This document shows positions 5,511 through 61,316 of a stretch of 64,000 bases of DNA, piece after piece (positions within the stretch are counted from its first letter, which is position 1; each line of letters starts with the position of its first letter). The stretch is from positions 62,001 to 126,000 of the forward strand of contig NZ_JAFKCU010000005.1 of the NCBI RefSeq assembly GCF_017254845.1, given 5' to 3'. The notes under the pieces were generated by a model. The model saw only the letters and a list, made by a program, of their open reading frames with translations, did no database searches and had not been told where the DNA came from. A program made the position numbers and the translations under genes. Origin of the DNA: Algoriphagus pacificus (GTDB taxonomy: Bacteria > Bacteroidota > Bacteroidia > Cytophagales > Cyclobacteriaceae).

Positions 5511-5613
5511 TAATTCTACTTTTATGCCATGAAAAAACCTCCAAAACAGCTTGTAATGGAGGTTCTTGGAAATAATCTTAAAATAATGCGGACAAATTTG
5601 TTCGCTTGCGGAC
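5511..5613 (-). promoter_or_regulatory. Sigma-54-like promoter with upstream palindrome for the 5404 operon
   Basis: On the minus strand TGGCATAAAAGTAGA starts at 5529. TGGCA and the G of the -12 region fit sigma-54, but TAGA replaces TTGC. The palindrome CGGACAAATTTGTTCG is at 5589-5604, centred 67.5 bp upstream of the -24 T, with GGAC following five bases later (5610-5613). The spacing matches the other permease promoters. A second TGGCAT, at about 5485, lacks a fitting -12. Confidence 0.55.
5532..5564 (-). terminator. Terminator-like hairpin between operator and promoter
   Basis: AACCTCCA (5536-5543) pairs with TGGAGGTT (5557-5564). On the minus strand the stem is followed by six T's (5532-5537) that run straight into the TGGCAT box. 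It would end transcripts coming from the DUF4097 gene (5645-6577) and insulate the permease operon. Confidence 0.6.
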
Positions 5614-5644
5614 TATCTAATTGTATCGCATTAGATGAAATTTA

Positions 5645-6577
5645 TTAGTTGAAAAACTCAAGGTTAATACTTCCCCCAGAGCTTTCCATATTCAAAACTG
5701 ATCCTCCGCCATTTAATTTCCCTACGATCAGATCACGCTTGATCTCTCCACTGAAGTTTGGAAGCTTGGTATTGACTCTTCCACCTCTCAGATTTAAATC
5801 CAATCCCAATCCCTCTGGAATTCTAGCAGTAATGCTTCCACCGGAAGATCTGAAATTCAAATCCTGATCAACTCTCAATAAACTTGCACGGATAGATCCA
5901 CCACTAGTACTGGCATTGATTCCTCCAGAAATATCATCAACGCTAACGCTTCCACCAGAAGTTCTCACACTTAGCATTCCTGTCATTCCATTGATTTTCA
6001 CTGCTCCACCACTGGTTTCCACATCTACATCACCCATGAATTCTTCTAGAGAAAATGACCCCCCAGAACTACGGGTACTTACTTTACCTCCTGATTCTGC
6101 TATTCTGATACTGCCTCCTGAGGTGGCTACAGTTTGACTTCCCTGAACACCATAAATTGAAATTGAGCCTCCACTGGACTTAAACTCGGAAGAGATTTCT
6201 GTAGGTGCCATGATCTTAAAAGAAAGCTGTAAACGTTCCCCTCTCTTCCAGTTTGAATTGTTATTACTTTTTACTTTGACAGAAACCGTATTTCCACTTT
6301 GATCAATGGTGATATTATAATTCTCCAGTAATCTTTCCACTTCTGCATTGCCTGGGTTCATTTCTTCCCCATTCAATTTTACATACATTTCTACCTCTAT
6401 TTCATTTCCATTTCCACCAGCGACAGAAACACTCGCTCCTGAGGTTTCCACATCCAGCATGGCATTAGAAGAGACTTGAAATTGCTTCTTCAAGTAAGGT
6501 TCCGCAGCAAATGACTCCAATGAAAAAATCATTAGGGTCAATAAAAATGCTGCTTTCAGATTCATTCCTATTTTCAT
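5645..6577 (-). CDS. DUF4097-type secreted beta-solenoid protein (310 aa)
   Basis: A predicted exported protein. A signal peptide (hydrophobic segment about residues 8-24, ending SFAAEP) is followed by about 280 residues built from short strands with the recurring motif SSGGS/TSGGS, roughly every 17-20 residues. This is the pattern of the DUF4097/DUF2807 adhesin-like right-handed solenoids. No catalytic residues are evident. It lies between two permease units but has its own copy of the shared promoter (-24 at 6653, palindrome 6714-6729). That suggests it is made together with the permeases, as a surface partner, sensor or cargo. The role is inferred; the fold family is fairly sure. Confidence 0.85.
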   Translation of the reverse strand: MKIGMNLKAAFLLTLMIFSLESFAAEPYLKKQFQVSSNAMLDVETSGASVSVAGGNGNEIEVEMYVKLNGEEMNPGNAEVERLLENYNITIDQSGNTVSVKVKSNNNSNWKRGERLQLSFKIMAPTEISSEFKSSGGSISIYGVQGSQTVATSGGSIRIAESGGKVSTRSSGGSFSLEEFMGDVDVETSGGAVKINGMTGMLSVRTSGGSVSVDDISGGINASTSGGSIRASLLRVDQDLNFRSSGGSITARIPEGLGLDLNLRGGRVNTKLPNFSGEIKRDLIVGKLNGGGSVLNMESSGGSINLEFFN

Positions 6578-6638
6578 GGTTTTTGATTAAAATTATTGAT
6601 TGACACGTTTTCAAAGGATTACTCCTACTCTAATTAAT

Positions 6639-6738
6639 TCTAATTTGATGCCAATCAAAATCCACTAAATCAAGCTCTAAAGCCATTTTTTGAAGAAACA
6701 GCTGGATTTTATTCGAACAGCATTGTCCGATTTTGGGC
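6639..6738 (-). promoter_or_regulatory. Sigma-54-like promoter with upstream palindrome for the DUF4097 gene
   Basis: The minus-strand TGGCATCAAATTAGA starts at 6653, about 75 bp before the start codon. The palindrome CGAACAGCATTGTCCG is at 6714-6729 (centre 68.5 bp upstream), with GGGC at 6735-6738. An imperfect inverted repeat (AAAATCC ... GGATTTT, about 6658-6710) fills the spacer. This non-permease gene carries the same element as the permeases. Confidence 0.55.
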
Positions 6739-6821
6739 AAAATTATTTTCCAGTTTTCAGTGATCAGTACACAATAATCAGAAGCATAAAACCCATTTTA
6801 CCATTTTAACTATTATTTAGC

Positions 6822-9260
6822 CTATTCATTTTTCAAACTCTCAATCGGGTTGATAACAGCTGCACGGTAGGCCTGCGAAAATATGATCCCAATACTGATC
6901 AAAAGGATTACAGCTACTCCAATTCCAATAGGTACCACTCCGATACTGACTCTGGATGCAAAAAACTCCAACCAGAAATTATTGATGAAATAAGCAGTAG
7001 GAACTGCCAGAAGAATAGCTACTCCGAGCAACTTCAAAAAGCCTTTGGAAAGCAAGAAGATAATCTGAGAAATACTTGAACCCAAGGTTTTTCGGATTCC
7101 AATCTCTTTGATTCTGGTTTGAGCCGTGTAAGTGGCCATACCCAACAATCCCAAACAGGAAACAAAGATTGCCAAGAAGGAAATCAAACCAATGACGGCC
7201 ATCACATCTCCCAAAACCTGATGAATAAACAGAAGTTCCTGATCCAGATATTTGTATGAGAACTTAGAATCCGGATTTACTTCTTTCCAGGTTGACTCCA
7301 AAGAAGCGATTGTTTGGGCTTGATTCGCACCCGAAACTTTCACCAATGCAAATCCCAAGGCATCATTTCTATTTCTTAAAACCAAGCTTTGCATAGGCCT
7401 ATCAGGAGATAGAAATTGGAAATCTTTTACGACACCGGCAATCTGAACATTTTTAAAATCTCCTCCATCTTCTAATGCCAATTGCTTCCCCACAGCTTCC
7501 TCACTGCTCCCCAGATTAAAACTATTGACAGCAGATTCATTGATTAAGATGAGATTATCACTTCCTTCTACAGGCAGATTTTTCCCGGAAACTAGCTCTA
7601 GATCCAAAACATCCACAACTCCACTGTTAACATCAAAAAAGTTGGTTTCCAAGCTATCCAATGGATAATCAGGATTGATCACTTCAGTGCCAAAATTCCA
7701 TCCTCCAGCTGGGATAAGAGAAGATCCACCTACTGAAGAAACAGCTGGATTGGAATTCAATGCCTGCGCAAACCTTGCATAATTTTCAGGTTTGTAAAGT
7801 TTCACAGTCACCACATTTTCCTTATCAAATCCATAATCAAAATTCAAAATATGTTTTGCCTGGGATTGAATCAAAACCACAGAAATGATGAAAATAAGTG
7901 AGATGGAAAACTGAATCACTAGCAAAACATTTCTCAAACCCATGCTTTTGAAAAGTCGAACGCCGCTCAGTTTATTGAAAAGGTTGACTGGATTTAGTTT
8001 TGCAACATAAGTAGCTGGAAGCACTCCTGCTACTATCCCAACCAAAATGCTAAAGCCAATAAATACCAAAATCCCTGGTATACTTTGCTTTAAGGATATT
8101 TTGAGATATTGATTAAAAGTCAAACCGTCCATCCCGCTTTCCAGAATCTGAAGCATCAAAAAGGCAAAGAATAAAGAGCAAAGAGAAATGACTACCGCCT
8201 CCGTTATAAACTGGGCAAAAATCTGTCTTTTATTAGCTCCCGAAACTTTCCTGATTCCTACCTCTTTCACGCGGGTCAAAGCCCGGGCAACAGACATGTT
8301 GGTGTAATTCAAACATGCAGAAAACATCACGATCAGACACAGAATCGACAAAATCAACAAGACAACTTTTGGAATTGACACATGCGTCGTATTACCAATA
8401 AAACCAATTGGAGTAATCTCACTTAGAGCTACAGCCTTAAAAGAATGTTTGTTATCATACTTATCCCCATAAATTTCTTCCGAGATATTATCCAGATTTG
8501 CCTGTAAATCCTCTTTGCCATTCCCTTCTTTTAAAAGCACATAAGTATAATTTGACCAGACATTTTCCCAGTTATTTTCTGAGAATCTGAGCGCTCCTTC
8601 TGGAAGAGATTTCATCGTACTGAGAGAAGCAAATAATTTGAAAGGAAGATGGGTTTTTCCTGGTGTTGGATTCAAAACCCCTGTAATGGTAAAATACCCA
8701 AAATCAGTTTCTGTATTCCCTTCCTCAATATCCAAAGCCCGCATATCTTTATCATGGAAAGCAACCGTTTTACCTAGAGCTGATTCATCTTTGAAAAGGA
8801 TTTCTGCCATATCGGATGAAATCACAAGTGAGTAAGGTTCTTCCAATGCTGTATTTGGATCTCCTTCCTTGAATGAAAAATCCAGAATTTTGAAAATGTT
8901 GGCATCAGCGAAATATCCTCCACCCGTTGCAAATTTCTCATCATAAATCACATCTCCTCCAATTTCACTATTCAGGGCAGCCGCTTCTTCAATGATAGGA
9001 TAGTCACTTTTCAGTTTCTCTGCCAAAGGCAAAGCCGAACTGGCTGTTTCGCCATTGTTCTGCTGATATCTAGTAGTGTGAACCCGATAAATCCTATCCT
9101 TTTTACTGTGATAGGTATCGTAACTGTATTGATCCATCAGGATCATAATGATGAGGAGACAGACGGACATGCTGACAGCTAGTCCAAGGATATTGATGAA
9201 ACTAAAGGACATGTTCCTTTTTAGGTTTCTCCAGGCGAGGATGATGTAATTTCTAAGCAT
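6822..9260 (-). CDS. FtsX/MacB-type ABC permease (812 aa)
   Basis: Two-module permease with loop signatures VKEVGIRKVSGAN and IKEIGIRKTLGSS. It begins MLRNYIILAWRNLKRNM and ends NPIESLKNE. The first periplasmic domain is of ordinary length and carries the family motif SYDTYHSKKDRIYRVH just after TM1. The gene is a single-gene unit: its own promoter element lies at 9332-9433, and the downstream DUF4097 gene has another. The next gene upstream is the response regulator at 9516, 255 bp away. Confidence 0.95.
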   Translation of the reverse strand: MLRNYIILAWRNLKRNMSFSFINILGLAVSMSVCLLIIMILMDQYSYDTYHSKKDRIYRVHTTRYQQNNGETASSALPLAEKLKSDYPIIEEAAALNSEIGGDVIYDEKFATGGGYFADANIFKILDFSFKEGDPNTALEEPYSLVISSDMAEILFKDESALGKTVAFHDKDMRALDIEEGNTETDFGYFTITGVLNPTPGKTHLPFKLFASLSTMKSLPEGALRFSENNWENVWSNYTYVLLKEGNGKEDLQANLDNISEEIYGDKYDNKHSFKAVALSEITPIGFIGNTTHVSIPKVVLLILSILCLIVMFSACLNYTNMSVARALTRVKEVGIRKVSGANKRQIFAQFITEAVVISLCSLFFAFLMLQILESGMDGLTFNQYLKISLKQSIPGILVFIGFSILVGIVAGVLPATYVAKLNPVNLFNKLSGVRLFKSMGLRNVLLVIQFSISLIFIISVVLIQSQAKHILNFDYGFDKENVVTVKLYKPENYARFAQALNSNPAVSSVGGSSLIPAGGWNFGTEVINPDYPLDSLETNFFDVNSGVVDVLDLELVSGKNLPVEGSDNLILINESAVNSFNLGSSEEAVGKQLALEDGGDFKNVQIAGVVKDFQFLSPDRPMQSLVLRNRNDALGFALVKVSGANQAQTIASLESTWKEVNPDSKFSYKYLDQELLFIHQVLGDVMAVIGLISFLAIFVSCLGLLGMATYTAQTRIKEIGIRKTLGSSISQIIFLLSKGFLKLLGVAILLAVPTAYFINNFWLEFFASRVSIGVVPIGIGVAVILLISIGIIFSQAYRAAVINPIESLKNE

Positions 9261-9331
9261 ATACTTTTAGATGAAAATGTGTGGAAAAAAGTTACAGACT
9301 CAAGTCCCTCCTTTTTCCACCTATTCAATCC

Positions 9332-9433
9332 CGTATTTTTATGCCATTTTGAAAAAATCTTTAAATCACTGTTTTTAAGCTATTTATTTAAAAATCCCTG
9401 CTCTTTTCCGAACAGCTATGTTCGGAATTGGGC
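9332..9433 (-). promoter_or_regulatory. Sigma-54-like promoter with upstream palindrome for permease 6822-9260
   Basis: TGGCAT starts at 9346 on the minus strand. The -12 region reads TACG and is the poorest match of the set. The palindrome CGAACAGCTATGTTCG at 9409-9424 is perfect in its outer six bases and extends to 18 bp with the flanking C/G. Its centre is 70.5 bp upstream of the -24 T, and GGGC follows at 9430-9433. Confidence 0.5.
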
Positions 9434-9515
9434 AAGATTCTAGCTAAAAAAATCTTGTTCTTTATTCTGTATTTCTGTGGGGTGAAAAAATTAAATACAG
9501 ACTAATTTTCCACCT

Positions 9516-10163
9516 TTAGATCAAACCCCAATCAACCGCTTTTTTGATCATTCCAACAGAGTTTTTTACATCCATCTTCACAAACAAATTTCGCTTGTGA
9601 GTAGCCACTGTATTGGTGCTTACGAATAGTGCATCTGCGATTTCCTGTGTGGTAAATTCTTGCGCGATTAATTTCACCACTTCAATTTCTCGCTTGGTGA
9701 TTTTCGGAATTTCTCCTTCTCTGGGTTTTGGGTTATCATGGAGACTTTCAATCATTTTCTCGGTCAAATGTGCACTCAGAACTTTCTTTCCTTCAAAGGC
9801 ATCTTTGATTCCTTGAATGAGATATTCTTTGGATGCATTTTTAAGCAAATAACCTGTAGCTCCTACTTTAAACAAAGAGGTTATAATACTTCCTTCGTCG
9901 TTGGTTGTCAGCATGATGACTCTGACATCCGGATGTGATTTATTTACATGCATGGTAGTTTCCAAGCCATCCATAACGGGCATTTGCAAATCGAGCAAAA
10001 GAACATCCACTGGTTCATTTTTCAGGAATTCCAGCACCTCTAATCCATTGTTTGCAGTTCCAACCACCTCTATGGATTTGTCTTTTGCAAAAATAGCCTT
10101 CAATCCATCCAACATGATTTGATGGTCATCAGCCAATAGAACTTTGATCTTTTCCATATACAT
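9516..10163 (-). CDS. NarL/LuxR-family response regulator (215 aa)
   Basis: Cytoplasmic transcription factor of a two-component system. The receiver domain (about residues 5-122) has the acidic pair ADD near residue 12, phospho-acceptor D58 in LLLDLQMPVMDG and the conserved TTND and K region. A C-terminal LuxR-type helix-turn-helix (about 150-212) has KITKREIEVVKLIAQE and TVATHKRNLFVKMDV. Its start is 13 bp after the stop of the kinase gene, so the two are cotranscribed. A second ATG two codons in is an equally possible start. It lacks the AAA+ domain needed to activate sigma-54, so it is not the obvious regulator of the shared permease promoters. Its own targets are unknown. Confidence 0.95.
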   Translation of the reverse strand: MYMEKIKVLLADDHQIMLDGLKAIFAKDKSIEVVGTANNGLEVLEFLKNEPVDVLLLDLQMPVMDGLETTMHVNKSHPDVRVIMLTTNDEGSIITSLFKVGATGYLLKNASKEYLIQGIKDAFEGKKVLSAHLTEKMIESLHDNPKPREGEIPKITKREIEVVKLIAQEFTTQEIADALFVSTNTVATHKRNLFVKMDVKNSVGMIKKAVDWGLI

Positions 10164-15246: not shown

Positions 15247-17610
15247 TTATTCGCTTTTTAGTGTATTTGCCGGATTTGCCAAGGCGGCTTTTATAGCCTG
15301 AGAGCTCACGGTCAAAAGTGCTATCAAAAGCGTTATTATTCCAGTCAGTAAATAGATTTTCCAATCGATTGATGTTTTGTAGTCAAAGGTATCCAACCAG
15401 TCTTTCATAAAATACCAAGAAAGTGGAATCCCTATGATTACTGACAATAATACCAAACGGCTAAATTCGGTGGAAAGCAAAGTCACTAGATTGGAAACAG
15501 AAGCGCCTAATACTTTTCGTACCGATATCTCTTTTTTCCTTCTTTCAGCAATGAATGTTGCCAAACCAAACAAACCCATGCAGGATATTACTACAGCCAA
15601 TCCAGAAAATAGAGAAGTTAGAGCTGCTGTTCTTTTCTGGGACTGAAACTTTTTCGCATTTACTTGATCCACAAACTGGTATTCAAAAGGAGATCCTGAA
15701 TTGAACTTAGCGAATACTTTCTCCACGCTGGCTAATGAATTGACCATATTTTGGTTCTCACTCAGGCGGATATGGATGAAGTTTAGGTTTCTCTTTGGCC
15801 CCATTACAACGATTGGCTTCACTTCCGCAAAAGGTGATTCCATGATGAAATCCTTCACCACTCCAACTATAGCAAACTCCAGTTCATCATCTTTGATAAC
15901 TTGACCAATCGGATCATCAAATCCCAGTATTTCAGCAGTCCTTTCATTAATGATTGCCGCCATACTATCACTTGCATAAGTGAATACGTCAATATCACGA
16001 CCAGCTATCAGTTCCATTCCTGCAGTTTTGACTAAGTTGGCATCTGATCCCATCCTATACATAGTTGGTCTATAATCAGGATCTTTCCCTTGCCAATCCA
16101 TCATATTGGTATCACTGTAAATCTCAGTTAAAGGGGAAAATGTATAAGTGACACTTTCCACTTCTGGAAGAGCCAACAATTCATTTCTCATCGCTTCCTT
16201 ATTTTTTCGGATGGATTCAGTCACTTGATGAAAAATCAAATTATCCTCATTAATTCCCATATCCCGATTTTGGACATATTCTACTTGATCTCGGATGATC
16301 CAAACACTTGAAATCAATGCTACTACTACCGAAAATTGAAATACCACCAAGACTTCCCTTGGCTTGATACCAAAGCTTTTATTAACTCCCATTTTTGATC
16401 TAAAAATAGAAGTTGGGTTAAAGGAGCTCATCAAAAATGCAGGGTAGCTTCCAGCTAAAACCCCAACAAAAAGGATATAGACGAGAGATAAAATCCAGAA
16501 AAACGGTTGATAAAAAGGATTGGCTAACTCCTGCCCGATCAAATTAGTAAACCAAGGAAATGAAAGGGAAACAATAACCAAAGCCACCAGATAAGCACAG
16601 AGGGCAATCAGTATTGATTCAGACAAAAACTGACCGATCAACATTCCTTTTCCTGCTCCTGAAATTTTACGAATTCCTACTTCTTTGGAGCGTTTATCGC
16701 TTTGAGCAGTACTTAAGTTTACAAAATTGATCCCTGCAATGATCAACACAATGATTGATACAATCCCAAACATTCGAATCAACTCAATTTTCCCCCCTAC
16801 TGACTCCCCATTTTCAAATTTGGAATAGAGATGCAAATCCTTGACAGGAAATAAAAAGTCAGAAATCTTATCCTCTAATCCTCCATACTTTATTGAAAAG
16901 TTGCTGTATTTTTTATTGAACAATTCGACATCTGATCCCTCAGTAAGCATTGCAAAAGTTCGCATGGAGTTATTTCCCCAATAATCATCCACCCATCCCA
17001 TGGCTTCCAGCTTTTTGAAAGGAATAAATGCAGTAAAAGAAAACTCTGTATTCTGAGGCAGATCTTTGATCACAGCCTTTACTTCAAAATCCAATTGATC
17101 CTCCACTTTGACGGATTTCCCCAACGCGGAAGTTTCTCCAAAAAGCTTCTTTGCCACAGATTCCGTCAAAACTATATTATCTGGTCCAGTTAAAGCTTCC
17201 ACCGGATCCCCTTCCAATACTTCAAAACTGAAAATTTCAAAAAATCCGGGATCAGTAAATGTCGGCAGCTCAGAGAATTTTTTATCCCCAACAGATAAAA
17301 TCATGGGATCCCATTCAGTAATTCGGGCAGTTGACTCCACTTCAGGAAAATTCTCCTTTAAAGTAGGCCCATAAGGAGCAGGAGTATAATCCCAACTCAC
17401 GGGTTCTCCTTCGATTTCGGTCGTTCTCCACACTGCAAAAATTCTATCAGAATTTTCATAGAATCTATCCACAGAAATCTCAAATTGAACCCAAATAAGA
17501 ATCAAAATTGAGGCTGCAATCCCAATTCCTAAACCACCGATATTGATAAATGCATAGCCTTTACTTCGGGCAATGTTTCTCCAGGCAATTTTGAAATAGT
17601 TTTTGATCAT
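15247..17610 (-). CDS. FtsX/MacB-type ABC permease, short form (787 aa)
   Basis: One of the two shortest copies (787 aa). The loop signatures are SKEVGIRKISGAG and KKEISVRKVLGAS, and the tail NPANTLKSE deviates from the usual NPV. It opens MIKNYFKIAWRNIARSK. The first periplasmic domain begins with SVDRFYENSDRIFAVW. It is a monocistronic unit: the shared promoter element lies upstream at 17701-17800 and a strong terminator at 15182-15215. Together with the 787-aa copy at 48632-50995 it may form a subfamily, since both open MIKNYFKIA and have a compact first periplasmic domain. Confidence 0.95.
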   Translation of the reverse strand: MIKNYFKIAWRNIARSKGYAFINIGGLGIGIAASILILIWVQFEISVDRFYENSDRIFAVWRTTEIEGEPVSWDYTPAPYGPTLKENFPEVESTARITEWDPMILSVGDKKFSELPTFTDPGFFEIFSFEVLEGDPVEALTGPDNIVLTESVAKKLFGETSALGKSVKVEDQLDFEVKAVIKDLPQNTEFSFTAFIPFKKLEAMGWVDDYWGNNSMRTFAMLTEGSDVELFNKKYSNFSIKYGGLEDKISDFLFPVKDLHLYSKFENGESVGGKIELIRMFGIVSIIVLIIAGINFVNLSTAQSDKRSKEVGIRKISGAGKGMLIGQFLSESILIALCAYLVALVIVSLSFPWFTNLIGQELANPFYQPFFWILSLVYILFVGVLAGSYPAFLMSSFNPTSIFRSKMGVNKSFGIKPREVLVVFQFSVVVALISSVWIIRDQVEYVQNRDMGINEDNLIFHQVTESIRKNKEAMRNELLALPEVESVTYTFSPLTEIYSDTNMMDWQGKDPDYRPTMYRMGSDANLVKTAGMELIAGRDIDVFTYASDSMAAIINERTAEILGFDDPIGQVIKDDELEFAIVGVVKDFIMESPFAEVKPIVVMGPKRNLNFIHIRLSENQNMVNSLASVEKVFAKFNSGSPFEYQFVDQVNAKKFQSQKRTAALTSLFSGLAVVISCMGLFGLATFIAERRKKEISVRKVLGASVSNLVTLLSTEFSRLVLLSVIIGIPLSWYFMKDWLDTFDYKTSIDWKIYLLTGIITLLIALLTVSSQAIKAALANPANTLKSE

Positions 17611-17700
17611 ATTTCAAAGTATTTGTTGAGACATTTCTGAGTTAAATAATGGACTTTCCCATTCGGTTGAAATCGATAGAGAAAATCACTTGAATTCATT

Positions 17701-17800
17701 TCCACTTTTGTGCCATTAAAAAAGTCTCCAAATTGGCTAAAAGACCAAGTTTCCAAAAGTTTAGAGCAAAAGCCCCGAACAAAAATGTTCGCCTACGGGC
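17701..17800 (-). promoter_or_regulatory. Sigma-54-like promoter with upstream palindrome for permease 15247-17610
   Basis: TGGCACAAAAGTGGA starts at 17715 on the minus strand; the box is complete at -24 and has TGGA at -12. The palindrome CGAACAAAAATGTTCG lies at 17776-17791, centred 68.5 bp upstream, with GGGC at 17797-17800. A T-run (ACTTTTTTA) directly precedes the box. Confidence 0.6.
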
Positions 17801-26777: not shown

Positions 26778-29204
26778 TTATTCGTCTTTAAGGCTCTTCA
26801 CCGGATTTGCCTGAATACTTTTATAGGTCTGGAAGAAAATAGTCAGCACTGCCAGCCCTAAACAACTTCCAATTGCTAATGCAATCACCCAAACGCTGAT
26901 ACCAGTCTTATAGGCAAATTCCTCCAACCACTGATTCATAAAATAAACTGCAAGTGGAATGGCCAAAGCCACAGATATCAAAACCAAACGGAGGTAGGAA
27001 GCAGATAACATGACAAAGATTTCCGCCATAGAAGCGCCAAATACTTTTCGGATTCCAATTTCCTTGGTTCTCAAATGAGTGGTATAAGCGGTCAATCCAA
27101 ATAGTCCCAAACAGGCTATCAAAATGGACATGAAAGTCAGTACTTTCAGAAGATCAGCCATTTTCATTTCGGATTGATAGACTCTAGCAAAATCCTGATC
27201 CATAAATGAATAATTCATAGGAACCCGTGGCTCGTAAGCTTCCCAACCTGCCTTCAATTCATTAATGGCAGATTCCGCCTGATTTCCCTGAACTCTCACA
27301 GTGATATAATCCCTCAAGTAATAATCATGCATGTATTCGATGACCAAGGGTTTGATCTCGTTTCTGTAGGTTTCGAAATTGAAATCCTTCACCAATCCAA
27401 CCACTTCCAAAGAAGCTTCATCATCCTCTCCCTCATTTTTCACTAAAATCTGTCCAATTGGGTCCTCAGCAATTCCAAGGTATTCAGCAGCTTTTTCATT
27501 GATTATGATTTTTCCGACATCTGCTCCTGAAGTTTGTGCAAAGTTTCTTCCCTTCAATAATTCAAAATGATAAGTAGTCAGGTATTCTGCATCTGCTTCA
27601 TACCAGTTCATCCCCTGATCTTCTTTGGAATTAATGGAGTTAAAAGAGCGCATTTGGTATTGACCGGTCATCGGAATTCCTGTGGAAAAGCTCATGGATT
27701 CGATTTGGCTGCTGGATGCAAATCGTCCTTTGAAATCTTCCCGCTGTGAATTCTGAATTTCTCCATCATTGTGGATGATGAGCAGTTGCTCTTTGTCAAA
27801 GCCTGGATTGGAATTTTGTATAAAACTCATCTGACGCTGCACCAAGAGGGTACAAATAATCAGGGTCAAAGAAGTAGCAAATTGAAAAACCACCAAGGCA
27901 TTTCTGAAGGAATGGGCATTCTTTCCAACAGTCAATTGCTTCTTCATGATTAGCAAAGGCTTGAAGGAAGAAAGGTAAAATGCCGGATACGCGCCAGAGA
28001 TAAGTGTCAATCCGATCAAGAGAATTGGAATCATACCCAATACCAATGGATTACTGAATAAATTAAACTGAATGTCTTTGCCGGAAATCTGATTGAAAAG
28101 TCCATTTGACAACTGTACTACAACCAGTGAAAGCGCTACAGAGATCAAAACCAAGATGAAAGCCTCTGTCAAAAACTGGTAGACCAATTGGGACTTTGCC
28201 GACCCCATTACTTTCCTCACTCCTACCTCCATGGACCGAAGTCCAGCTTTGGCAGTAGCCAAATTCATAAAATTGATACATGCCAAAAGCAACACAAAAA
28301 CCGCTACCAAAGAGAAAATATACACATAGCTTTCATAGCTGTTGGCTTCCAATTCCCTTAGCAAATGAGATTTCAAATGGATATCCTGAATCGACATCAA
28401 CTGAAGATTGTAATCTGAACCCTCACCCTCTTTCTCAATAGCCGGAAATGCATAATTCGAAACGATCTGATCTAATTTCGCCTTCACTGCTTCACTGCTA
28501 CCATTTTCGATTTTCACATAGGTATTTAGGATAGGCCAAGTCCAGGAGTCCATCAAAAAGATCTCTTGATTCATCCATGGCTCATAAACCAGCATATCAA
28601 AATGTAAATGGGACTGGGCAGGGATATCCTTAATCACAGCTGCTATTTTACGGGGAGTGGGATCATTACTACCGATCAATAATGCCTTTCCAAGGACTTC
28701 CTGAGGAGGGATTTCTCCAAAATACTTCTTTGCCAGAGATTCTGTTATCGCAATAAAATTGGGTTGGGAAAGCGCCTTTTCTTTGCTTCCTGCCACTAAA
28801 GGCATATCAAAAACCTGAAAGAAATTTGGCTCAGCATAGAAAACATTCTCCTCACGGAATACCTGATCCATATTGGTTCCGGATCCTGGCTGAATTGTAA
28901 AGTCATTCCATTTCAAAATTCTCGTCACCGCATTTACTTCCGGAATATCGGAGGCAATTCTTGGCCCCAAAGCCGGAGGGGCTGTAGCATAGCTTGCTGT
29001 TTTAAAATCTCCCCAATGGGAACTCACCCTATAAATAGATGAGGATTCAGAGAGATATTGATCATAACTGAGTTCATCCTGAATAAAAAGTGTGATCATC
29101 AAAAAACCACTGATCCCAAGAGTCAAACCAAAAATATTCAGTCCAGTATACAGTCTGTTTTTCTTAAGTACTCTCCAGGCAATCTTTAGGTAGTTTTTTA
29201 GCAT
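26778..29204 (-). CDS. FtsX/MacB-type ABC permease, operon-leading (808 aa)
   Basis: Start set at ATG 29204, which gives MLKNYLKIAWRVLKKNR like its paralogues. An in-frame ATG 90 bp upstream would add 30 residues and overlap the promoter element, so it was not used. Loop signatures SMEVGVRKVMGSA and TKEIGIRKVFGAS; tail NPVKSLKDE. The SMEVG first loop also occurs in the 36925-39351 copy, suggesting close kinship. Promoter element at 29265-29364. First of four permeases with gaps of 133, 114 and 282 bp. Confidence 0.94.
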   Translation of the reverse strand: MLKNYLKIAWRVLKKNRLYTGLNIFGLTLGISGFLMITLFIQDELSYDQYLSESSSIYRVSSHWGDFKTASYATAPPALGPRIASDIPEVNAVTRILKWNDFTIQPGSGTNMDQVFREENVFYAEPNFFQVFDMPLVAGSKEKALSQPNFIAITESLAKKYFGEIPPQEVLGKALLIGSNDPTPRKIAAVIKDIPAQSHLHFDMLVYEPWMNQEIFLMDSWTWPILNTYVKIENGSSEAVKAKLDQIVSNYAFPAIEKEGEGSDYNLQLMSIQDIHLKSHLLRELEANSYESYVYIFSLVAVFVLLLACINFMNLATAKAGLRSMEVGVRKVMGSAKSQLVYQFLTEAFILVLISVALSLVVVQLSNGLFNQISGKDIQFNLFSNPLVLGMIPILLIGLTLISGAYPAFYLSSFKPLLIMKKQLTVGKNAHSFRNALVVFQFATSLTLIICTLLVQRQMSFIQNSNPGFDKEQLLIIHNDGEIQNSQREDFKGRFASSSQIESMSFSTGIPMTGQYQMRSFNSINSKEDQGMNWYEADAEYLTTYHFELLKGRNFAQTSGADVGKIIINEKAAEYLGIAEDPIGQILVKNEGEDDEASLEVVGLVKDFNFETYRNEIKPLVIEYMHDYYLRDYITVRVQGNQAESAINELKAGWEAYEPRVPMNYSFMDQDFARVYQSEMKMADLLKVLTFMSILIACLGLFGLTAYTTHLRTKEIGIRKVFGASMAEIFVMLSASYLRLVLISVALAIPLAVYFMNQWLEEFAYKTGISVWVIALAIGSCLGLAVLTIFFQTYKSIQANPVKSLKDE

Positions 29205-29264
29205 AATCAATCTAGAATTTAATAGGCCGGGCATAATAGAGCCCATTGTCTCTCTTTCTACATT

Positions 29265-29364
29265 TCCAGTTTTGTGCCATAGAAAAAAGCCCAAAACAGC
29301 GTTGTTTTGGGCTTTTTATCTAATGTTTCATAAGTCAAGCGAACAATTTCGTCCGCTCGTGGTC
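29265..29364 (-). promoter_or_regulatory. Sigma-54-like promoter with upstream palindrome for the 29204 operon
   Basis: TGGCACAAAACTGGA starts at 29279 on the minus strand. The palindrome CGAACAATTTCGTCCG lies at 29340-29355 with its centre 68.5 bp upstream; one inner base departs from the TGTYCG half. GGTC follows at 29361-29364. The predicted start point leaves a leader of about 50 nt before ATG 29204. Confidence 0.6.
29283..29317 (-). terminator. Strong hairpin terminator abutting the 29204 promoter
   Basis: AAAAAGCCCAAAACA (29284-29298) pairs with TGTTTTGGGCTTTTT (29303-29317). On the minus strand it ends in a T-run three bases before the TGGCAC box. It ends permease 29380-31803 and stops read-through into the next unit. 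Confidence 0.8.
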
Positions 29365-31803: not shown

Positions 31804-31859
31804 GTTGGCAATTGTTTCGGTAGTACTAAATCTCAAAACTTAAAATCCCTGCTATCTAT

Positions 31860-31960
31860 TCCACATTAATGCCAAAGGAAAAAAGCACAAAACGACTCAA
31901 ATAGCCGCTTTTAGGGATTTTCAAGTAAAAAGTAACGGACAATTTTGTTCGCTAGTGGGC
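31860..31960 (-). promoter_or_regulatory. Sigma-54-like promoter with upstream palindrome for permease 29380-31803
   Basis: TGGCATTAATGTGGA starts at 31874 on the minus strand. The palindrome CGGACAATTTTGTTCG at 31936-31951 is centred 69.5 bp upstream, with GGGC at 31957-31960. A weaker inverted repeat (AAAACGACT, AGCCGCTTTT; 31889-31912) lies in the spacer. Confidence 0.6.
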
Positions 31961-31970
31961 GATTTCTGTT

Positions 31971-39433: not shown

Positions 39434-40123
39434 TTACTTTCTTATAATTCTTCCAGATCCTGAGCTGGCAATAGATTGATGCTCAGGGTCTCCTTTGATG
39501 TAGACATTTCCCGAACCGGAAGAAGCTACTTTCAAGTCACCCTCTACTCCAATTGAAGTAGAACCAGAACCTGATTTACCGATTTTGACATCGCCAGCCA
39601 TCAAATCCAAGGCATCAAAAGCACCGGATCCAGATTGACCAATATTTGCAGTTTCGCAAGAACCTCCCTCAATGATAACTCTTCCAGAGCCACTCATTCC
39701 CACGCTTAGTGTGCGGGTGTCAACATCCTGCATCTTGATATTTCCACTTCCTGAACTCCCGATAGAAAATGTGCGGGAAGAAACATCCGAAGTCACATCA
39801 ATATTTCCAGAACCACCTAGACCAATTGCCTCAAGTTCACGGACTGTAACATAGGCTGTGAAATTCACATTGTTATGTCTTCCTTTCTCCAATTTGATTT
39901 CAAGCTTTCCGTCTTCCACTTCAGTAATAACTTTATTCAAATCAAATCCTTTGGACACCAATTTCACTTCGTCTTTATCTCCCAAAGAGATAATTACATC
40001 CCAAGAACCCGAAGAATTGACTCTTGTAAAATCACCTGGAGTTCTTACTTCTGTCTGTGCCTGAGCAGTTGTCCCCATCAAAAAAAGCAGGAATACAAAT
40101 GCGTAAATAGTTGATACTTTCAT
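39434..40123 (-). CDS. DUF2807 (GIN-domain) secreted protein (229 aa)
   Basis: Start set at ATG 40123 (MKVSTIYAFVFLLFLMG), a clear signal peptide ending TAQAQT. An upstream in-frame start would put 18 non-signal residues ahead of it and overlap the promoter. The mature part has the head motif DEVKLVSKGFDLNKV and a solenoid of GSGNI/GSGRV/GSGST repeats. First gene of a unit that continues with permease 36925-39351. It is preceded by a shared-type promoter at 40154-40258, so the solenoid protein, not the permease, leads this operon. Confidence 0.9.
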   Translation of the reverse strand: MKVSTIYAFVFLLFLMGTTAQAQTEVRTPGDFTRVNSSGSWDVIISLGDKDEVKLVSKGFDLNKVITEVEDGKLEIKLEKGRHNNVNFTAYVTVRELEAIGLGGSGNIDVTSDVSSRTFSIGSSGSGNIKMQDVDTRTLSVGMSGSGRVIIEGGSCETANIGQSGSGAFDALDLMAGDVKIGKSGSGSTSIGVEGDLKVASSGSGNVYIKGDPEHQSIASSGSGRIIRK

Positions 40124-40153: not shown

Positions 40154-40258
40154 TCCAGAGACTGTGCCAAGCAACAAAAAACCCTTTCAGAGGCCTGAAA
40201 GGGTCATTTGAAGATTAAACTTGTCCGCACAGATCGGATTTTGACCGAATGCGAACAA
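40154..40258 (-). promoter_or_regulatory. Sigma-54-like promoter with degenerate operator for the DUF2807-permease operon
   Basis: TGGCACAGTCTCTGG starts at 40169 on the minus strand. The operator is degenerate in its core (GATCGGATTTTGACCG, 40232-40247), but wider arms TTGTCCGCA (40221-40229) and TGCGAACAA (40250-40258) share the same centre, 70.5 bp upstream of the -24. Confidence 0.45.
40175..40204 (-). terminator. Terminator of permease 40274-42694
   Basis: ACCCTTTCAG (40181-40190) and CTGAAAGGGT (40195-40204) form a perfect 10-bp stem. On the minus strand it is followed by TTTTTTG, then the TGGCAC box of the next unit six bases on. Another terminator lying between operator and promoter. 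Confidence 0.8.
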
Positions 40259-43159: not shown

Positions 43160-45565
43160 TCATTCGTCTTTGATAGAATCCACCGGATTAGACCAAGCAG
43201 CTTTCAAAGCTTGAGATCCAACCGTCAAAATCGCTATCAACAAGGTCAACCCACCTGCTACCAAAAAGGAAAGAACAGATAATCCGGCTTTGTACGGAAA
43301 CTCCTCTTGCCAGCTTCGCATCGCATACCAAGCCAGAGGAAATGCAAATACCATTGCGATTCCAACCATGATAATAAAATCCTTACTGACCAAGCTTAAG
43401 AGATTACCACTACTGGCACCGAGAACTTTTCTGATTCCAATCTCTTTGGCTCTTTGCTGAACTGTGTAGGCTGCCAAACCAAATAAACCCAAGCAGGAAA
43501 TCAGAATCGCCAGAATACCTGCGATAGTGAAAGCCTTGCTCAATTGCTGTTCTGATTGGTATTGGGAAGCAAATTTCTCATCCATGAAAAAGTAAGTAAA
43601 TGGATTGCCAGGGAAGATTTCCTCATAAATGGATTGGATAGAAGCCAGATTATCCGCCATTTGATTGGGATCCACTACCAAAGAAAAGAAACCATCCGCC
43701 TGAGAAGGAAGGAAAATCATCGGAGAGATTTTTTCACGCAAGGACAAATGATGATAATCCTTGACCACTCCTATCACTTCGTATGGATCTCCCCAAAGGA
43801 TGTTTTTACCAATGGCATCTGCAGGACTTTCGAAGCCTAATTCTCGCACCGAACTCTCATTTAAAATAAGCTTTTTGGCAGCACCCCAACCTTGCTCTGC
43901 ATCTGCTTGGCTAAAATTCCTTCCAGCCACCAATTCAATTTCATAGGTTGGAATAAACTGATCGTCCATGATCATCATGGCGTAGTTTTTCTCCTTGTCT
44001 TCCGGTCTTGGAACCATCGGGGTGATCCCACCAGCGGTAAAATTATAGCTGATCCCAGGAAGCGCATTGGAAGCTCCCAATCCTTTGACAAAAGTCTGAG
44101 AAAGCAGACTCTGCTTAAAGTTTGCCATTTTGTTTTTCTTGTTTTCCCCTACATCATCAGGTCCCTCCACAATGATCTTCTGATCCAGATTCATTCCAAG
44201 ATTCTTGCTTTGCATAAAGTTCAACTGATCCCGAATCACCAAGGTGCAAACAATAATCCCAATGGAAATCACAAACTGAAATACCACCAAGCTCTTTTTC
44301 AGGATTTCGCTACTTGGAGCTTGGAATCTCAACTCAGATTTATGATCAAATTTGCCCGACAGGGCCACCACATAAAATCCGGAAATCAAAGCACAGATAC
44401 CGATCACGCCTACAAGCAAGATCCAGAAAACCGGTGTCTGGAAAGCTCCCATCCAAATTGATTTCCCAATAATTGACTCTGCGAGATTCTGTCCCAGATA
44501 CACCAAAGAAATACCGATCACCGTAGCAAAAACCATCAAAAGAATGGTTTCCACCATAAACTGCTCTGCTAATTGCCAACTTTTCGCACCCAGCACTTTA
44601 CGCATTTTGATCTCTTTGATGCGGGTCAAAATACTAGCTGAGGATAGATTCAGGTAATTCACATAGGCAATTCCCAAAATCAAGAAAGCCATGATGGCAA
44701 AAACCAAAATGGTGGCTAGACTGCCGTAGGAAGGCAAGGAATCAGAAATACTGGAACCCAAGTGCATTTCTGTGAGCGGCTGGAGCGTGATAGTGACTTC
44801 CTCTGAACCCGGATTTTTTCGAATGAAATCAGTGATCTGCTGGGATAAATCCTTCGCATCTACCCCTGATTTACTTAAAGCAAAAAGATTCACAAATCCA
44901 GAGTCCACCCCATTCGGATCAGCCCAATCATTTCCTCCTCGGTTTTCTGGGTTTTCCAGCGTATGAATGGAAATAAAGATATTGGCAGCCAAATCAGATC
45001 TGGCAGGTATTTCGGCAAGTACGCCTGTTACCGTAAAATCATGCTTTCCGAACTGATTGCTCAGGCTAAAGGATTTACCCAAGGCATCTTCTTCTCCAAA
45101 GTATTTTTTGGCAAGTTCTTCCGTGATGACGGCAGTTTGCGAAGCACTTAAATCTGCGGTGCCTCGTAAAATCGGAAATGAAAAATCCTCAAAAAAGCGT
45201 CCTTCCACGAAGCTGACTTGATTTTCCTTGAAGGCCAAATCCGTTCCCGGAATCGCGATCAATCCACCACCGATAAACTCAGCCAATCGATCCACAGCCT
45301 CAACATCCGCAAACTGATCTTTGAGAATAGTTGCATAACCGGGAGGCAAATAGACATTAGGATCTTGATTTCCGTCCGTTACCACCACTCGATAGAGACG
45401 GTCTTTGTTGGCGTGAAAATCATTGTAAGTCCACTCTGTTGCCAAAAAGGCGAACAAAGTCAAAAAGGTGACCAGTCCTAAAACCAATCCTATGACATTG
45501 ACGAAACTGAAAAGTCTCCTTTTCCGAAGACTACGAAATGCAATTTTGAGGTAGTTTTTCCACAT
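43160..45565 (-). CDS. FtsX/MacB-type ABC permease, divergent copy (801 aa)
   Basis: Start set at ATG 45565 (MWKNYLKIAFRSLRKRR). A longer frame adds 42 residues that overlap the promoter. The first loop, IKEIKMRKVLGAK, is the most divergent of the set, whereas the second, AKEIGIRKVLGAS, is standard; tail NPVDSIKDE. The entry motif is TYNDFHANKDRLYRVV and TM1 reads LVTFLTLFAFLATEW rather than the usual I/L/V/C pattern. It has its own promoter at 45661-45761. It could head a transcript that also covers permease 40274-42694. Confidence 0.93.
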   Translation of the reverse strand: MWKNYLKIAFRSLRKRRLFSFVNVIGLVLGLVTFLTLFAFLATEWTYNDFHANKDRLYRVVVTDGNQDPNVYLPPGYATILKDQFADVEAVDRLAEFIGGGLIAIPGTDLAFKENQVSFVEGRFFEDFSFPILRGTADLSASQTAVITEELAKKYFGEEDALGKSFSLSNQFGKHDFTVTGVLAEIPARSDLAANIFISIHTLENPENRGGNDWADPNGVDSGFVNLFALSKSGVDAKDLSQQITDFIRKNPGSEEVTITLQPLTEMHLGSSISDSLPSYGSLATILVFAIMAFLILGIAYVNYLNLSSASILTRIKEIKMRKVLGAKSWQLAEQFMVETILLMVFATVIGISLVYLGQNLAESIIGKSIWMGAFQTPVFWILLVGVIGICALISGFYVVALSGKFDHKSELRFQAPSSEILKKSLVVFQFVISIGIIVCTLVIRDQLNFMQSKNLGMNLDQKIIVEGPDDVGENKKNKMANFKQSLLSQTFVKGLGASNALPGISYNFTAGGITPMVPRPEDKEKNYAMMIMDDQFIPTYEIELVAGRNFSQADAEQGWGAAKKLILNESSVRELGFESPADAIGKNILWGDPYEVIGVVKDYHHLSLREKISPMIFLPSQADGFFSLVVDPNQMADNLASIQSIYEEIFPGNPFTYFFMDEKFASQYQSEQQLSKAFTIAGILAILISCLGLFGLAAYTVQQRAKEIGIRKVLGASSGNLLSLVSKDFIIMVGIAMVFAFPLAWYAMRSWQEEFPYKAGLSVLSFLVAGGLTLLIAILTVGSQALKAAWSNPVDSIKDE

Positions 45566-45660: not shown

Positions 45661-45761
45661 ATCCACTTTCATGCCATCCAAAAACCGTCAAATCAATGCT
45701 TTAGGGCAGTTTAAGCTGAAATTGCTTCAAAACTATCGGACAAAATTGTTCGCCTGCGGTC
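45661..45761 (-). promoter_or_regulatory. Sigma-54-like promoter with upstream palindrome for permease 43160-45565
   Basis: TGGCATGAAAGTGGA starts at 45676 on the minus strand. The palindrome CGGACAAAATTGTTCG at 45737-45752 is centred 68.5 bp upstream, with GGTC at 45758-45761. A T-run (GGTTTTTGGA) precedes the box. Confidence 0.6.
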
Positions 45762-45773
45762 GAAGATACTCGA

Positions 45774-58577: not shown

Positions 58578-58651
58578 CCCGAATCTGATATGCTTCACCC
58601 ATGAAATGAAAATAAACCGAAACACCCGAATTACAAATTCTTTGAAATATA

Positions 58652-58676: not shown

Positions 58677-58731
58677 GTCCCCAAAATATTCCCAGTCATA
58701 GTGAAGTAAGTAGCAACCTATCTATTTCAAC

Positions 58732-61155
58732 CTATTCATTTTTCAGATAATCCACCGGATTAGAGGCTGCTGTTTTGAAACTCTGGTAACTTACCGTCAG
58801 CCAGGCAATCAGGATAGAAATCATTCCTGCTATCAGAATAAGTCCTAGATCTATCTCTGTTCGGTAGGCAAAGTTTTGAAGCCAATATTTTTCCAAGAAG
58901 AAATAGCTTAGTGGTCCCGCCAGAATGAAGGCGATGATGACCAAAAGGGTGAAATCCTTACTCAAAATCGTCACCAAGCTAGCCATGGAAGCGCCTAGTG
59001 CCTTTCGAATACTAATTTCTTTGGATCTTTGCTCGGTCGTATAGGCAGCTAATCCAAATAAGCCCAAGCAGGCAATCCCAATTGCCAAGACAGTGAAAAT
59101 AAGAATGATATTTCCCATCTTCTGTTCTTTTTGGAAAAGGAGATTGAAGTCAGCATCCAAAAACGAATACTCAAATGGGGCCCCGTCTGCATGCTTATTC
59201 CAGGTCTGTTCGAGAACATCCAATTTATCGGAAATTTGACCAGGATTGATTCTGATAGCTATTTCATTGAAATCATTTTTCACCCCTTTCATCATTACCA
59301 AGGGCCGGACATTTTGCCGTAGGCTCTCGTAATTGTAATCTTCCAATATCCCAATCACCTTTCTGTAAGTAATTGATCCATCATCATCCCAAAAACCGCC
59401 CACTGCTTGATTTCCATCAAGTTCCGTCCATCCCATTTGGGCAAATGCTGCTTCATTCACTAAAACTGCCCCAGTGTCTGAAGGAATATCCTTTGAAAAG
59501 AACCTTCCGCCAACCAATTTCAAACCCATGGTTTCCAAGAAATTTTCATCCACCACATTGATATTGCAAAGGATATCCTGTTGATTGTCCTTTGTTCTCA
59601 TCACTGAGCTCCAGTCGATTCTCGGAGGAAGAGAATTGGCAAAACTCGCATTGGAGAAACCTGTCTGACTGATTAAATCCTGTTTGAAAGCTTCCTGATT
59701 ATTTCCCAATGCCCGAATGTGTAAAAGGGATATAACATTCTCCTTGTCAAAACCCAGATTCTTTTCCTGCATATAACCCAGCTGCTTGTAAACCACCATG
59801 CTGCTAATGATCAGAACCGTGGAAATAAAGAACTGAAATACCACCAGACCGCTACGAAGGTGAGACCTTTTCACGCCTGACCTGATTTTTCCTTTAAGCA
59901 CCGATGCAGGGGAAAAAGAGGTGAGGAAAAAAGCGGGATAAGAGCCTGCAACCAAACCTATCAAAAGAATAAAGGTCAAAAATCCGAAAACAAATTGGGG
60001 CTGGATTAGAAAGCTCAGTCCAATATCTTTCCCGGAAATTGCATTAAACGGCTGAAGAAGAATCAAAATGATTCCAAGAGCAATCAGCCCCGCAAAGACA
60101 CTGTTTAATATCGACTCTGTTAAAAATTGGGTGATCAAGCGACTTTTGTAGGCACCTATGGATTTTCTCACCCCTACTTCTTTGGCTCGATTGGCAGATC
60201 GGGCTGTGGACAAATTCATAAAGTTGATACAGGCGATAAGCAAAATAAAAACAGCAATCCCTCCAAATAAATACAGGTATTGCATGTTTCCTGAAGCTTT
60301 GATTTCGTCATCGGTATCTGACTTGAGATAAATATCGGGAAGTGCCATGGTATGAATTCCATAGGCATTGCCCTGCTCTTTGAAAGCATCTAAAGAAATT
60401 CCAAGAAATTTCTGGATCTCATCTCCAACATATTTAACCACAAAACCATTGAGGGCAACGTCAATATCTGCCGGATTGGCTCCTTCCACAAGTTTATAAT
60501 AAGTGTAGATGTTGTTACTAGTCCAGTTTTCCTGATCAAAAAACCACCAATTTTCTCCTGAAATTACCGCATCAAAATCCAAGTGTGAATTTGCCGGCAC
60601 ATCAGATACCAAACCTGTTACTTCCAAGGGCTTCTTTTCAGAACCACTGAAAATCGTTTTTCCAATGGGATCTTCCTCACCAAAATATTTCTCAGCAACG
60701 GTTTGAGTCAGAACAATTTTATCTGGTCCTGAAAGAGCGGTTTCAGGATTTCCTTTGATCAATTGAAATCCGAAAAAACTGAGAAAATTAGGGTCAGCAG
60801 CCAAGACAATTGGTTCGGTAAAAGCCTTATCCTCCACTCGAAGGGGAAAAGTCCGCATCATCCCAAAACGTACAGTTTCCTCCACTTGCGCAATTTCGTT
60901 TTCCATTGCAGGTCCCATAGGGGTGGCTGAGGTTGCGGAAGTAAACTCATTGCCATTCATTTTCCCGCTGACATTGGCTCGGTAAATCCTATCCGCATCG
61001 GGAATAAACTTTTCATAACTGAGTTCATCCAAGATAAAAAGGCAAATCAAAATACTTGCTGCCATCCCCAAACTTAGGCCGATAATATTGATGGCGGAAT
61101 AGATCTTATTGCGCTTCAAATTGCGCATGGCGATTTTGAGATAATTTTCCCACAT
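58732..61155 (-). CDS. FtsX/MacB-type ABC permease (807 aa)
   Basis: Loop signatures AKEVGVRKSIGAY and SKEISIRKALGAS; opening MWENYLKIAMRNLKRNK; tail NPVDYLKNE. WEN replaces the usual WKN at the start. It is separated from the main permease block by about 7.7 kb of accessory DNA, including the transposase. Its promoter is nonetheless of the same kind and nearly a copy of that of permease 48632-50995. The two genes were probably neighbours before the accessory segment arrived, or their upstream regions were duplicated together. Confidence 0.95.
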   Translation of the reverse strand: MWENYLKIAMRNLKRNKIYSAINIIGLSLGMAASILICLFILDELSYEKFIPDADRIYRANVSGKMNGNEFTSATSATPMGPAMENEIAQVEETVRFGMMRTFPLRVEDKAFTEPIVLAADPNFLSFFGFQLIKGNPETALSGPDKIVLTQTVAEKYFGEEDPIGKTIFSGSEKKPLEVTGLVSDVPANSHLDFDAVISGENWWFFDQENWTSNNIYTYYKLVEGANPADIDVALNGFVVKYVGDEIQKFLGISLDAFKEQGNAYGIHTMALPDIYLKSDTDDEIKASGNMQYLYLFGGIAVFILLIACINFMNLSTARSANRAKEVGVRKSIGAYKSRLITQFLTESILNSVFAGLIALGIILILLQPFNAISGKDIGLSFLIQPQFVFGFLTFILLIGLVAGSYPAFFLTSFSPASVLKGKIRSGVKRSHLRSGLVVFQFFISTVLIISSMVVYKQLGYMQEKNLGFDKENVISLLHIRALGNNQEAFKQDLISQTGFSNASFANSLPPRIDWSSVMRTKDNQQDILCNINVVDENFLETMGLKLVGGRFFSKDIPSDTGAVLVNEAAFAQMGWTELDGNQAVGGFWDDDGSITYRKVIGILEDYNYESLRQNVRPLVMMKGVKNDFNEIAIRINPGQISDKLDVLEQTWNKHADGAPFEYSFLDADFNLLFQKEQKMGNIILIFTVLAIGIACLGLFGLAAYTTEQRSKEISIRKALGASMASLVTILSKDFTLLVIIAFILAGPLSYFFLEKYWLQNFAYRTEIDLGLILIAGMISILIAWLTVSYQSFKTAASNPVDYLKNE

Positions 61156-61240
61156 ACTAGTTGGTGTTTAGTTGGTTTAGTTTCTGTAAAAAGTTGGTTT
61201 AGCTTTCACTAAATCAGATGCAGTTAGCCGCCAAAGAGTT

Positions 61241-61316
61241 GCATGGACTATGTCAAAAACCATAAAAAATTTGCCGATCGGCTAAAAAGGCTTTCTTAGA
61301 GAAGGGTATTTGTCTG
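61241..61316 (-). promoter_or_regulatory. Sigma-54-like promoter, variant class with mutated -24, for permease 58732-61155
   Basis: TGACATAGTCCATGC (minus, starting 61255) keeps the -12 GC but has GA in place of GG at -24. The upstream block GGGTATTTGTCTG (about 61304-61316) aligns with the 51202-51213 operator and is also centred about 53.5 bp away. Long identity with the 51140 region continues downstream (CAAAGAGTTGCATGG). Confidence 0.45.

Follow-up and report, generated by a model that had tools for sequence, protein, structure and literature searches.

Candidate sigma-54 enhancer-promoters upstream of exporter and permease genes in Algoriphagus pacificus and its relatives

Promoter units of the permease cluster

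The region analyzed is a stretch of 64,000 nucleotides of the Algoriphagus pacificus genome (RefSeq assembly GCF_017254845.1, contig NZ_JAFKCU010000005.1, positions 62,001 to 126,000 of the forward strand), hereafter the window. Nineteen permease frames of approximately 790-840 amino acids (aa) with a MacB_PCD domain are found in C38:50459-134536, C38 being the contig that holds the cluster; 14 of these are in the window (435-61155), and five longer MacB_PCD frames (861-908 aa) lie elsewhere in the genome. Eight units of the window share a promoter architecture in which an activator half-site array (upstream activating sequence, UAS), including the palindrome CGRACA-N4-TGTYCG, precedes a TGGCAY box. 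A first-pass annotation of the window had attributed this architecture to a dedicated sigma-54 regulon. The units are listed below in window coordinates and named after the start codon position of their first gene; the spacer is the gap between palindrome and TGGCAY.

5589..5616, minus strand: UAS of unit 5404, motif match
5514..5529, minus strand: -24/-12 box of unit 5404, TGGCAT-N5-TAGAA, spacer 59 bp, predicted start point near 5503
2933..5404, minus strand: first gene of unit 5404, duplicated MacB_PCD/FtsX permease
6714..6741, minus strand: UAS of unit 6577, motif match
6638..6653, minus strand: -24/-12 box of unit 6577, TGGCAT-N5-TAGAA, spacer 60 bp
5645..6577, minus strand: gene of unit 6577, toastrack-like protein
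9409..9436, minus strand: UAS of unit 9260, motif match
9331..9346, minus strand: -24 box of unit 9260, TGGCAT with a weak -12 (TACGG), spacer 62 bp
6822..9260, minus strand: gene of unit 9260, permease, 812 aa
17776..17803, minus strand: UAS of unit 17610, motif match
17700..17715, minus strand: -24/-12 box of unit 17610, TGGCAC-N5-TGGAA, spacer 60 bp
15247..17610, minus strand: gene of unit 17610, permease, 787 aa
29340..29367, minus strand: UAS of unit 29204, CGGACG in place of CGRACA (one mismatch)
29264..29279, minus strand: -24/-12 box of unit 29204, TGGCAC-N5-TGGAA, spacer 60 bp
26778..29204, minus strand: gene of unit 29204, permease
31936..31963, minus strand: UAS of unit 31803, motif match
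31859..31874, minus strand: -24/-12 box of unit 31803, TGGCAT-N5-TGGAA, spacer 61 bp
29380..31803, minus strand: gene of unit 31803, permease
40232..40257, minus strand: degenerate half-site array of unit 40123, TGTTCG-N4-CGGTCA-N4-CCGATC
40154..40169, minus strand: -24 box of unit 40123, TGGCAC, -12 register off by one base, weak member
39434..40123, minus strand: gene of unit 40123, DUF2807 toastrack protein, followed by permease 39351-36925
45737..45764, minus strand: UAS of unit 45565, motif match
45661..45676, minus strand: -24/-12 box of unit 45565, TGGCAT-N5-TGGAT, spacer 60 bp
43160..45565, minus strand: gene of unit 45565, permease

The eight palindrome-TGGCAY spacings of the first-pass annotation are all correct, with seven strong units and a degenerate one (40123). 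The palindromes before the seven strong starts comprise six exact copies and one with a single mismatch (29340), and the gaps of 59, 60, 62, 60, 60, 61, and 60 bp equal the annotated centre distances when these are taken to the first T. The tetranucleotide GGNC, annotated five bases past the palindrome, is present there in 7/7 strong units. In unit 40123 the outer half-site (TGTTCG) is perfect, the second (CGGTCA) has one mismatch and the third is lost; the second half-site lies 78 bp before TGGCA, against 74-78 bp in other promoters. This promoter is degenerate but correctly positioned.

Some permeases may be served by a promoter further upstream. Permease 435-2879 begins 53 bp after permease 2933..5404 and probably belongs to the same operon, while permeases 26644-24209 and 24094-21668, which have no motif of their own, come 133 and 114 bp behind permease 26778..29204, and these three perhaps form one operon. 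Outside the window, the same cluster has a motif copy at C38:52979 heading a permease-ATPase-TolC operon and another at C38:137162 heading a HlyD gene. A palindrome-like stretch at 18583 was discarded as a probable chance occurrence, there being no TGGCA within 260 bp upstream of the following frame. The stretches upstream of permeases 50995 and 61155 are related to each other (around CATGCAACTCTTTGGC), yet neither has a half-site array at the usual distance.

Frequency of the motif in the genome and family

Reversed patterns served as controls. The extended motif CGRACA-N4-TGTYCG-N5-GGNC has 7 matches in the 5.28 Mb genome (control 0), all of them in C38:52979-107761 and in one orientation. 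The exact palindrome alone occurs 9 times in the genome, 8 of these within the cluster, and allowing up to one mismatch yields 21 places versus 19 in the control. Hence single-mismatch palindromes away from a promoter are background, and only exact or promoter-coupled copies are meaningful.

The coupled motif (TGCCA-N56..67-CGRACA-N4-TGTYCG) was then counted in the genome itself, with 8 matches and a control of 0, and in 295 genomes of the family, where 181 matches versus 5 in the control were obtained, distributed among 78/295 genomes and 32/84 genera. The coupled motif is more frequent than expected by chance; an equal frequency at random positions is what the first-pass annotation had named as fatal to its proposal. 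A related pattern was found in 118/390 genomes of the order (family genomes included), with 20 control matches in 17 genomes, counted by eye. When no distance was preset, using the sequence of 78 loci picked by the bacterial enhancer-binding protein (bEBP) described below plus C38, TGGCAY stood 58-63 bp off in 79/115 oriented palindromes, and 30/115 had none within 200 bp; a further peak, at 74, corresponds to TTGGCA in the -12 box. Hence, although the -24 element TGGCAY expected of a sigma-54 promoter was part of the search pattern, its position is fixed independently of it.

The promoter box alone, TGGCAY-N5-TRGAA, has 19 matches in the genome versus 5 in the control, and of the 13 outside the cluster 10 are in sense frames, 2 in antisense frames and 1 in neither. 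The canonical TGGCAY-N5-TTGCW presents no excess in this genome (2 matches versus 3 in the control).

Anatomy of the array, spacer and -12 box

The anatomy was studied on 173 distinct promoters, many of which are related and many of which are HlyD promoters. The GGNC of the first-pass annotation is present, yet it is no separate element: it belongs to a third half-site, YGNYCR, found in 159/173 promoters versus 0-5 at five other offsets. Successive half-sites point in opposite directions and recur every 10 bp. The palindrome likewise exists as annotated, but the symmetry of the flanks is not centred on it. Flank columns outside the search seed are mirror-symmetric about the centre of half-sites 1+2 (0.21), 10 bp upstream, and not about that of half-sites 2+3 (0.017); among unselected columns, the best symmetry centre is -2.5 (0.174), with -2.0 next (0.173).

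These values bear on the alternative that the annotated palindrome (half-sites 2+3) is a single dimer site and the other half-site is auxiliary. Half-sites 2 and 3 are the least variable, though they served as the search seed, and isolated CGGACA-N4-TGTCCG sites stand before the gene of a bEBP paralog. Besides the flank symmetry, Marivirga retains TTCGTCCG-AATT-CGGACGAA, which is the pair 1+2. We consider the single-site alternative doubtful, albeit a real contender.

The lattice extends to more distant relatives. Twenty regions of genomes at 68-74% bEBP identity were taken, 17 of which had a HlyD match; a strict lattice of three half-sites was found in 14/17 of these HlyD promoters, 10 of the 14 having four half-sites. 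The lattice starts 87-90 bp before TGGCAY, and mononucleotide shuffles reproduced it in 0/3400 cases.

The array and the -24 box lie 58-62 bp apart in each of the 89 places examined in genomes with an ortholog of the candidate activator, and 56-66 bp apart in 16 others, in a search that allowed 56-67 bp. The GC profile of the spacer (106 promoters) is periodic, with a power of 0.74 at 9.5, 0.64 at 10 and 0.38 at 10.5, whereas a control stretch has at most 0.08 (0.07 at period 10, for which the null maximum is 0.012). The phased A/T tracts probably give the spacer DNA a bend of fixed direction. A hairpin or terminator in the spacer is not a general feature, given that 20% of 167 spacers have z < -2 versus 11% of control stretches.

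The -12 box is mostly T-K-G-R: T11 and G13, both outside the selection pattern, occur together in 159/173 promoters, and position 14 is a purine in 146/173. Two details of the first-pass annotation need correction here, as TGGCAY and the -12 box are separated by N5 rather than N7 and the box is not TTGC (0/173). More generally, the GC expected of a sigma-54 promoter exactly 10 bp after GG is found in only 16/173.

A canonical-dinucleotide sigma-54-like box, TGGCAC-N5-GTGCT, precedes groES of the same genome (L093:2286-2821, on contig C12), near another bEBP gene; this agrees with the chaperone regulon reported in Flavobacterium.

The resemblance among the promoters might merely derive from tandem duplication of permease genes with their upstream DNA. 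The permeases are indeed paralogs, many in tandem, and over nine promoters the similarity of the 52 bp that follow the -12 box is slightly higher than in shuffles (-6.2 versus -7.6 +/- 0.8). However, identities among the seven permeases that have the promoter reach only 27-33% (21 pairs), the 60 bp that precede the array are at shuffle level (-8.9 versus -8.5 +/- 0.8) while the spacers of the same nine promoters are alike (1.0 versus -7.6), and unlike gene types (HlyD, ATPase, toastrack-like) have the promoter too. Duplication alone is therefore a highly unlikely explanation.

Candidate activator, its paralog and rpoN

The genome has one PF04552 match (E=1.1e-56), rpoN, whose protein contains ARRTVAKYRE, noticed by eye, which we take to be the RpoN box. 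PF00158 yields seven strong and two weak matches. The candidate activator, bEBP1, is a protein of 462 aa (C38:137387-138775) composed of a receiver, a sigma-54 interaction domain (E=5.6e-68) and HTH_8, as in NtrC-type activators. Its gene and that of a 450-aa histidine kinase span C38:137387-140117, 11.4 kb to the right of the window and divergent from a HlyD-ATPase-permease-permease operon with the same promoter. This fits the earlier expectation that the activator would be encoded outside the window, and it places the candidate in the same cluster. HlyD as a neighbour of the bEBP gene was checked in the own genome, in some further loci and in 17/20 regions of the relatives at 68-74%. Hydropathy indicates one or two membrane stretches near the N terminus of the kinase and no large outer domain, a layout that recalls transporter-listening kinases (BceS-BceAB).

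An ortholog of bEBP1 (at least 79% identity) is encoded in 61/78 bEBP loci. In 60/61 of these, the 600 bp upstream of the bEBP gene contain a palindrome with at most one mismatch that is followed by TGGCA at 60-62 bp; such a combination occurs in 0/17 of the more distant bEBP loci. The loop of bEBP1 reads GSFTDA or GAFTDA in ortholog loci, versus GAFTGA. Co-adaptation of this loop with the modified -12 box was considered and is not supported: at a distant locus (L189), GAFTDA occurs together with a canonical GTGC box, and hence loop and -12 box are not paired in a simple way. A plasmid search with bEBP1 returned 78 records, all below 60% identity.

Two other regulators might bind the array. 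One is bEBP2, a paralog at C12:331873, with a recognition helix almost identical to that of bEBP1 (TRASLYRRLEKYGL versus TRSSLYRRLEKYGL) and with CGGACA-N4-TGTCCG sites before its own gene. Nevertheless, genomes such as G130, G040 and G211, which have no bEBP1 ortholog but do have another bEBP match (approximately E=1e-185 to 1e-191), have 0 motifs, and it is with bEBP1 that the regulon clusters; binding by bEBP2 instead of bEBP1 is thus improbable. The other is a LuxR-type regulator, for instance the response regulator 9516-10163, to which the palindrome would be an operator with TGGCA incidental. Its two-component pair is part of the cluster and immediately precedes permease 9260. In 27 other genomes (25 with the motif), however, it has no match at E<=1e-40 in 17 and only 38-43% identity in 10, and TGGCAY stands at 58-62 bp in 89/89 ortholog-genome places. 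Given its poor conservation in motif-bearing genomes, this response regulator was rejected as the array binder, and a LuxR-type operator is hardly credible.

Co-occurrence of the activator ortholog and the motif

Returning to bEBP1, an ortholog (at least 79% identity; next best 74%) was found in 55/295 family genomes. The motif is present in 50/55 of these versus 28/240 others (Fisher p = 1.9e-30, a value that ignores relatedness). Twelve genomes have neither ortholog nor motif while congeners have both: G130, four of genus g41, one of g21, one of g32 and five of g68 (G130, G040, G187, G205, G218, G096, G102, G211, G224, G249, G266 and G272). In four of five genera, MacB_PCD matches (domains counted, not genes) are fewer without bEBP1: G130 has 7 versus 19-72 in four congeners, with 45 in the own genome; g41 has 7-8 without and 12-20 with; g21 has 8 versus 12; and g32 has 8 versus 20. 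Genome G579, counted irrespective of its bEBP status, has 9 matches.

Putative target genes and exporter parts

Putative targets were assigned for 105/181 places, hand-chosen among the matches listed, with several beside the bEBP gene omitted; they comprise 30 loci and 74 regions, one region having two. The target was defined as the longest frame starting within 900 bp of the motif. In ortholog genomes, 87/89 downstream frames match proteins of the cluster (permease 66, second ATPase or TolC 14, toastrack-like 4, first ATPase 2 and HlyD 1), versus 10/16 in other genomes.

Permeases are thus predicted targets, as the first-pass annotation had it, and the HlyD, ATPase and TolC genes are included as well. 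The DUF4097/DUF2807 proteins that it also named are covered only in part: among the three toastrack-like genes of the window, a strong copy precedes only 6577, that of 40123 is degenerate and 36703 has none. The protein 5645..6577 has no Pfam hit and a LiaG-family match far under its cut-off, and five of its homologs in other genomes also stand behind the same motif.

The HlyD, ATPase and permease proteins are nearest to the DarC, DarD and ADOP (then DarB) models. Scores are below the cut-offs of the darobactin exporter DarBCD, with 194.5 of 450 bits for DarC, 287.5 of 375 for DarD, and 131 (permease 5404) and 112.7 (permease 17610) of 700 for DarB; HlyD passes the general RND_mfp model.

The window also contains, at 12335-13705, a 456-aa frame that fuses 2Fe-2S ferredoxin, guanylate/adenylate cyclase and globin domains.

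Proposed mechanism

The architecture is very probably an enhancer-promoter at which the sigma-54 holoenzyme would act together with a single NtrC-type activator dedicated to it, bEBP1, to control the exporter/permease set. The dedicated regulon of the first-pass annotation is supported in this respect by rpoN, by a bEBP in the cluster with the same promoter and by the co-occurrence of ortholog and motif across 295 genomes. Dimers of bEBP1 would bind the alternating half-sites TTYGTYCG-N4-CGRACA-N4-TGTYCG, whose centres are 10 bp (about one helical turn) apart, and would contact sigma-54 polymerase at TGGCAY-N5-TKGR, 58-62 bp downstream of the array. The contact would be made across a spacer in which A/T and G/C tracts recur in phase (period 9.5-10) and which is probably bent in a set direction. 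The regulon would comprise a tripartite-type ABC exporter set (HlyD, two ATPases, TolC) together with many duplicated FtsX/MacB permeases and toastrack-like proteins, in which few ATPases may serve many permeases. The physiological sense is likely an envelope or antimicrobial-compound stress response, with the variety of permeases switched on jointly.

Several observations weigh against this interpretation. As to the promoter, canonical GC at -12 is scarce, and the periodic signal of the spacer is strongest at 9.5 and lower at 10.5, off the B-DNA repeat. As to the activator, one of the 61 bEBP1 upstream regions (L171) is without a palindrome within one mismatch, and the sites before the bEBP2 gene are two CGGACA-type palindromes 41 bp apart (L092:7914-7970, C12). 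As to the targets, 8/14 permeases of the window have no motif copy, though some may be operon-borne. Among the ortholog genomes, 5/55 are without the exact motif (G111, G021, G146, G267 and G220), of which G267 and G021 match the other, related pattern. Conversely, 28 genomes without the ortholog have the motif, and 10/16 such places precede permease or toastrack homologs, hence similar sites probably serve other bEBPs as well. In g68, the MacB_PCD matches do not differ (8-27 without bEBP1, 16-23 with). Finally, the counted promoters are related by descent, so the counts are not independent.

A more specific proposal, which we advance tentatively and would rate somewhat below an even chance, is a hard-wired sigma-54 enhancer: a lattice of half-sites one helical turn apart, a phased and probably bent spacer of 60 +/- 2 bp that would replace IHF-type looping, and a modified -12 box. 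Conserved in many genera, it would act as one switch for a large group of fast-changing orphan permeases that share few ATPases, maybe themselves sensing envelope-active compounds.

The analysis thereby proposes a testable activator-operator pair for the many Bacteroidota permeases of this uncharacterised set. In addition, the 173 distinct promoters constitute a natural set for asking why some sigma-54 enhancers keep a fixed distance and others a variable one.

Comparison with known systems

A broad link between sigma-54 and FtsX-like permeases is already in print, since a 2025 survey (PMC12316311) reports, in the part available, sigma-54 enrichment for permease COG0577 in Bacteroidia, among other classes. 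As far as that part goes, this is a COG-level prediction from promoter matrices, and for this group it names neither an activator nor a UAS or a geometry. Sigma-54 promoters of Flavobacterium psychrophilum were mapped by 5'-end RNA-seq, one also by mutagenesis, with envelope stress as a theme in the available part of PMC9723704; its selected table (SM4) has chaperones, gliding and other genes, and no permease of the cluster kind. Excerpts of PMC7057263 provide further context. Among the matches listed, judged by titles and the starts of abstracts, no open-licence paper on bEBP1, its site or its geometry was found.

The toastrack proteins of LiaFSR/PSP systems occur with two-component systems and in some operons with ABC transporters (PMC11237479), whereas the part of that paper available describes no sigma-54 activator with permease arrays. 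The distance between array and promoter, 58-62 bp here, compares with mostly 100-250 bp in Clostridiales according to the portion of PMC6615313 at hand.

Like NtrC/AtoC/ZraR-type systems, bEBP1 is a receiver-AAA+-Fis helix-turn-helix activator with a linked kinase; its nearest NCBIfam models are PEP_resp_reg and AtoC, both under cut-off. At the position of the GAFTGA loop of these systems, it has GSFTDA. The exporter resembles the darobactin exporter DarBCD and ADOP, given that the HlyD, ATPase and permease best match the DarC, DarD and ADOP models. It differs from them in that the matches fall under curated cut-offs and that here the permeases far outnumber the ATPases and a regulatory element is shared.

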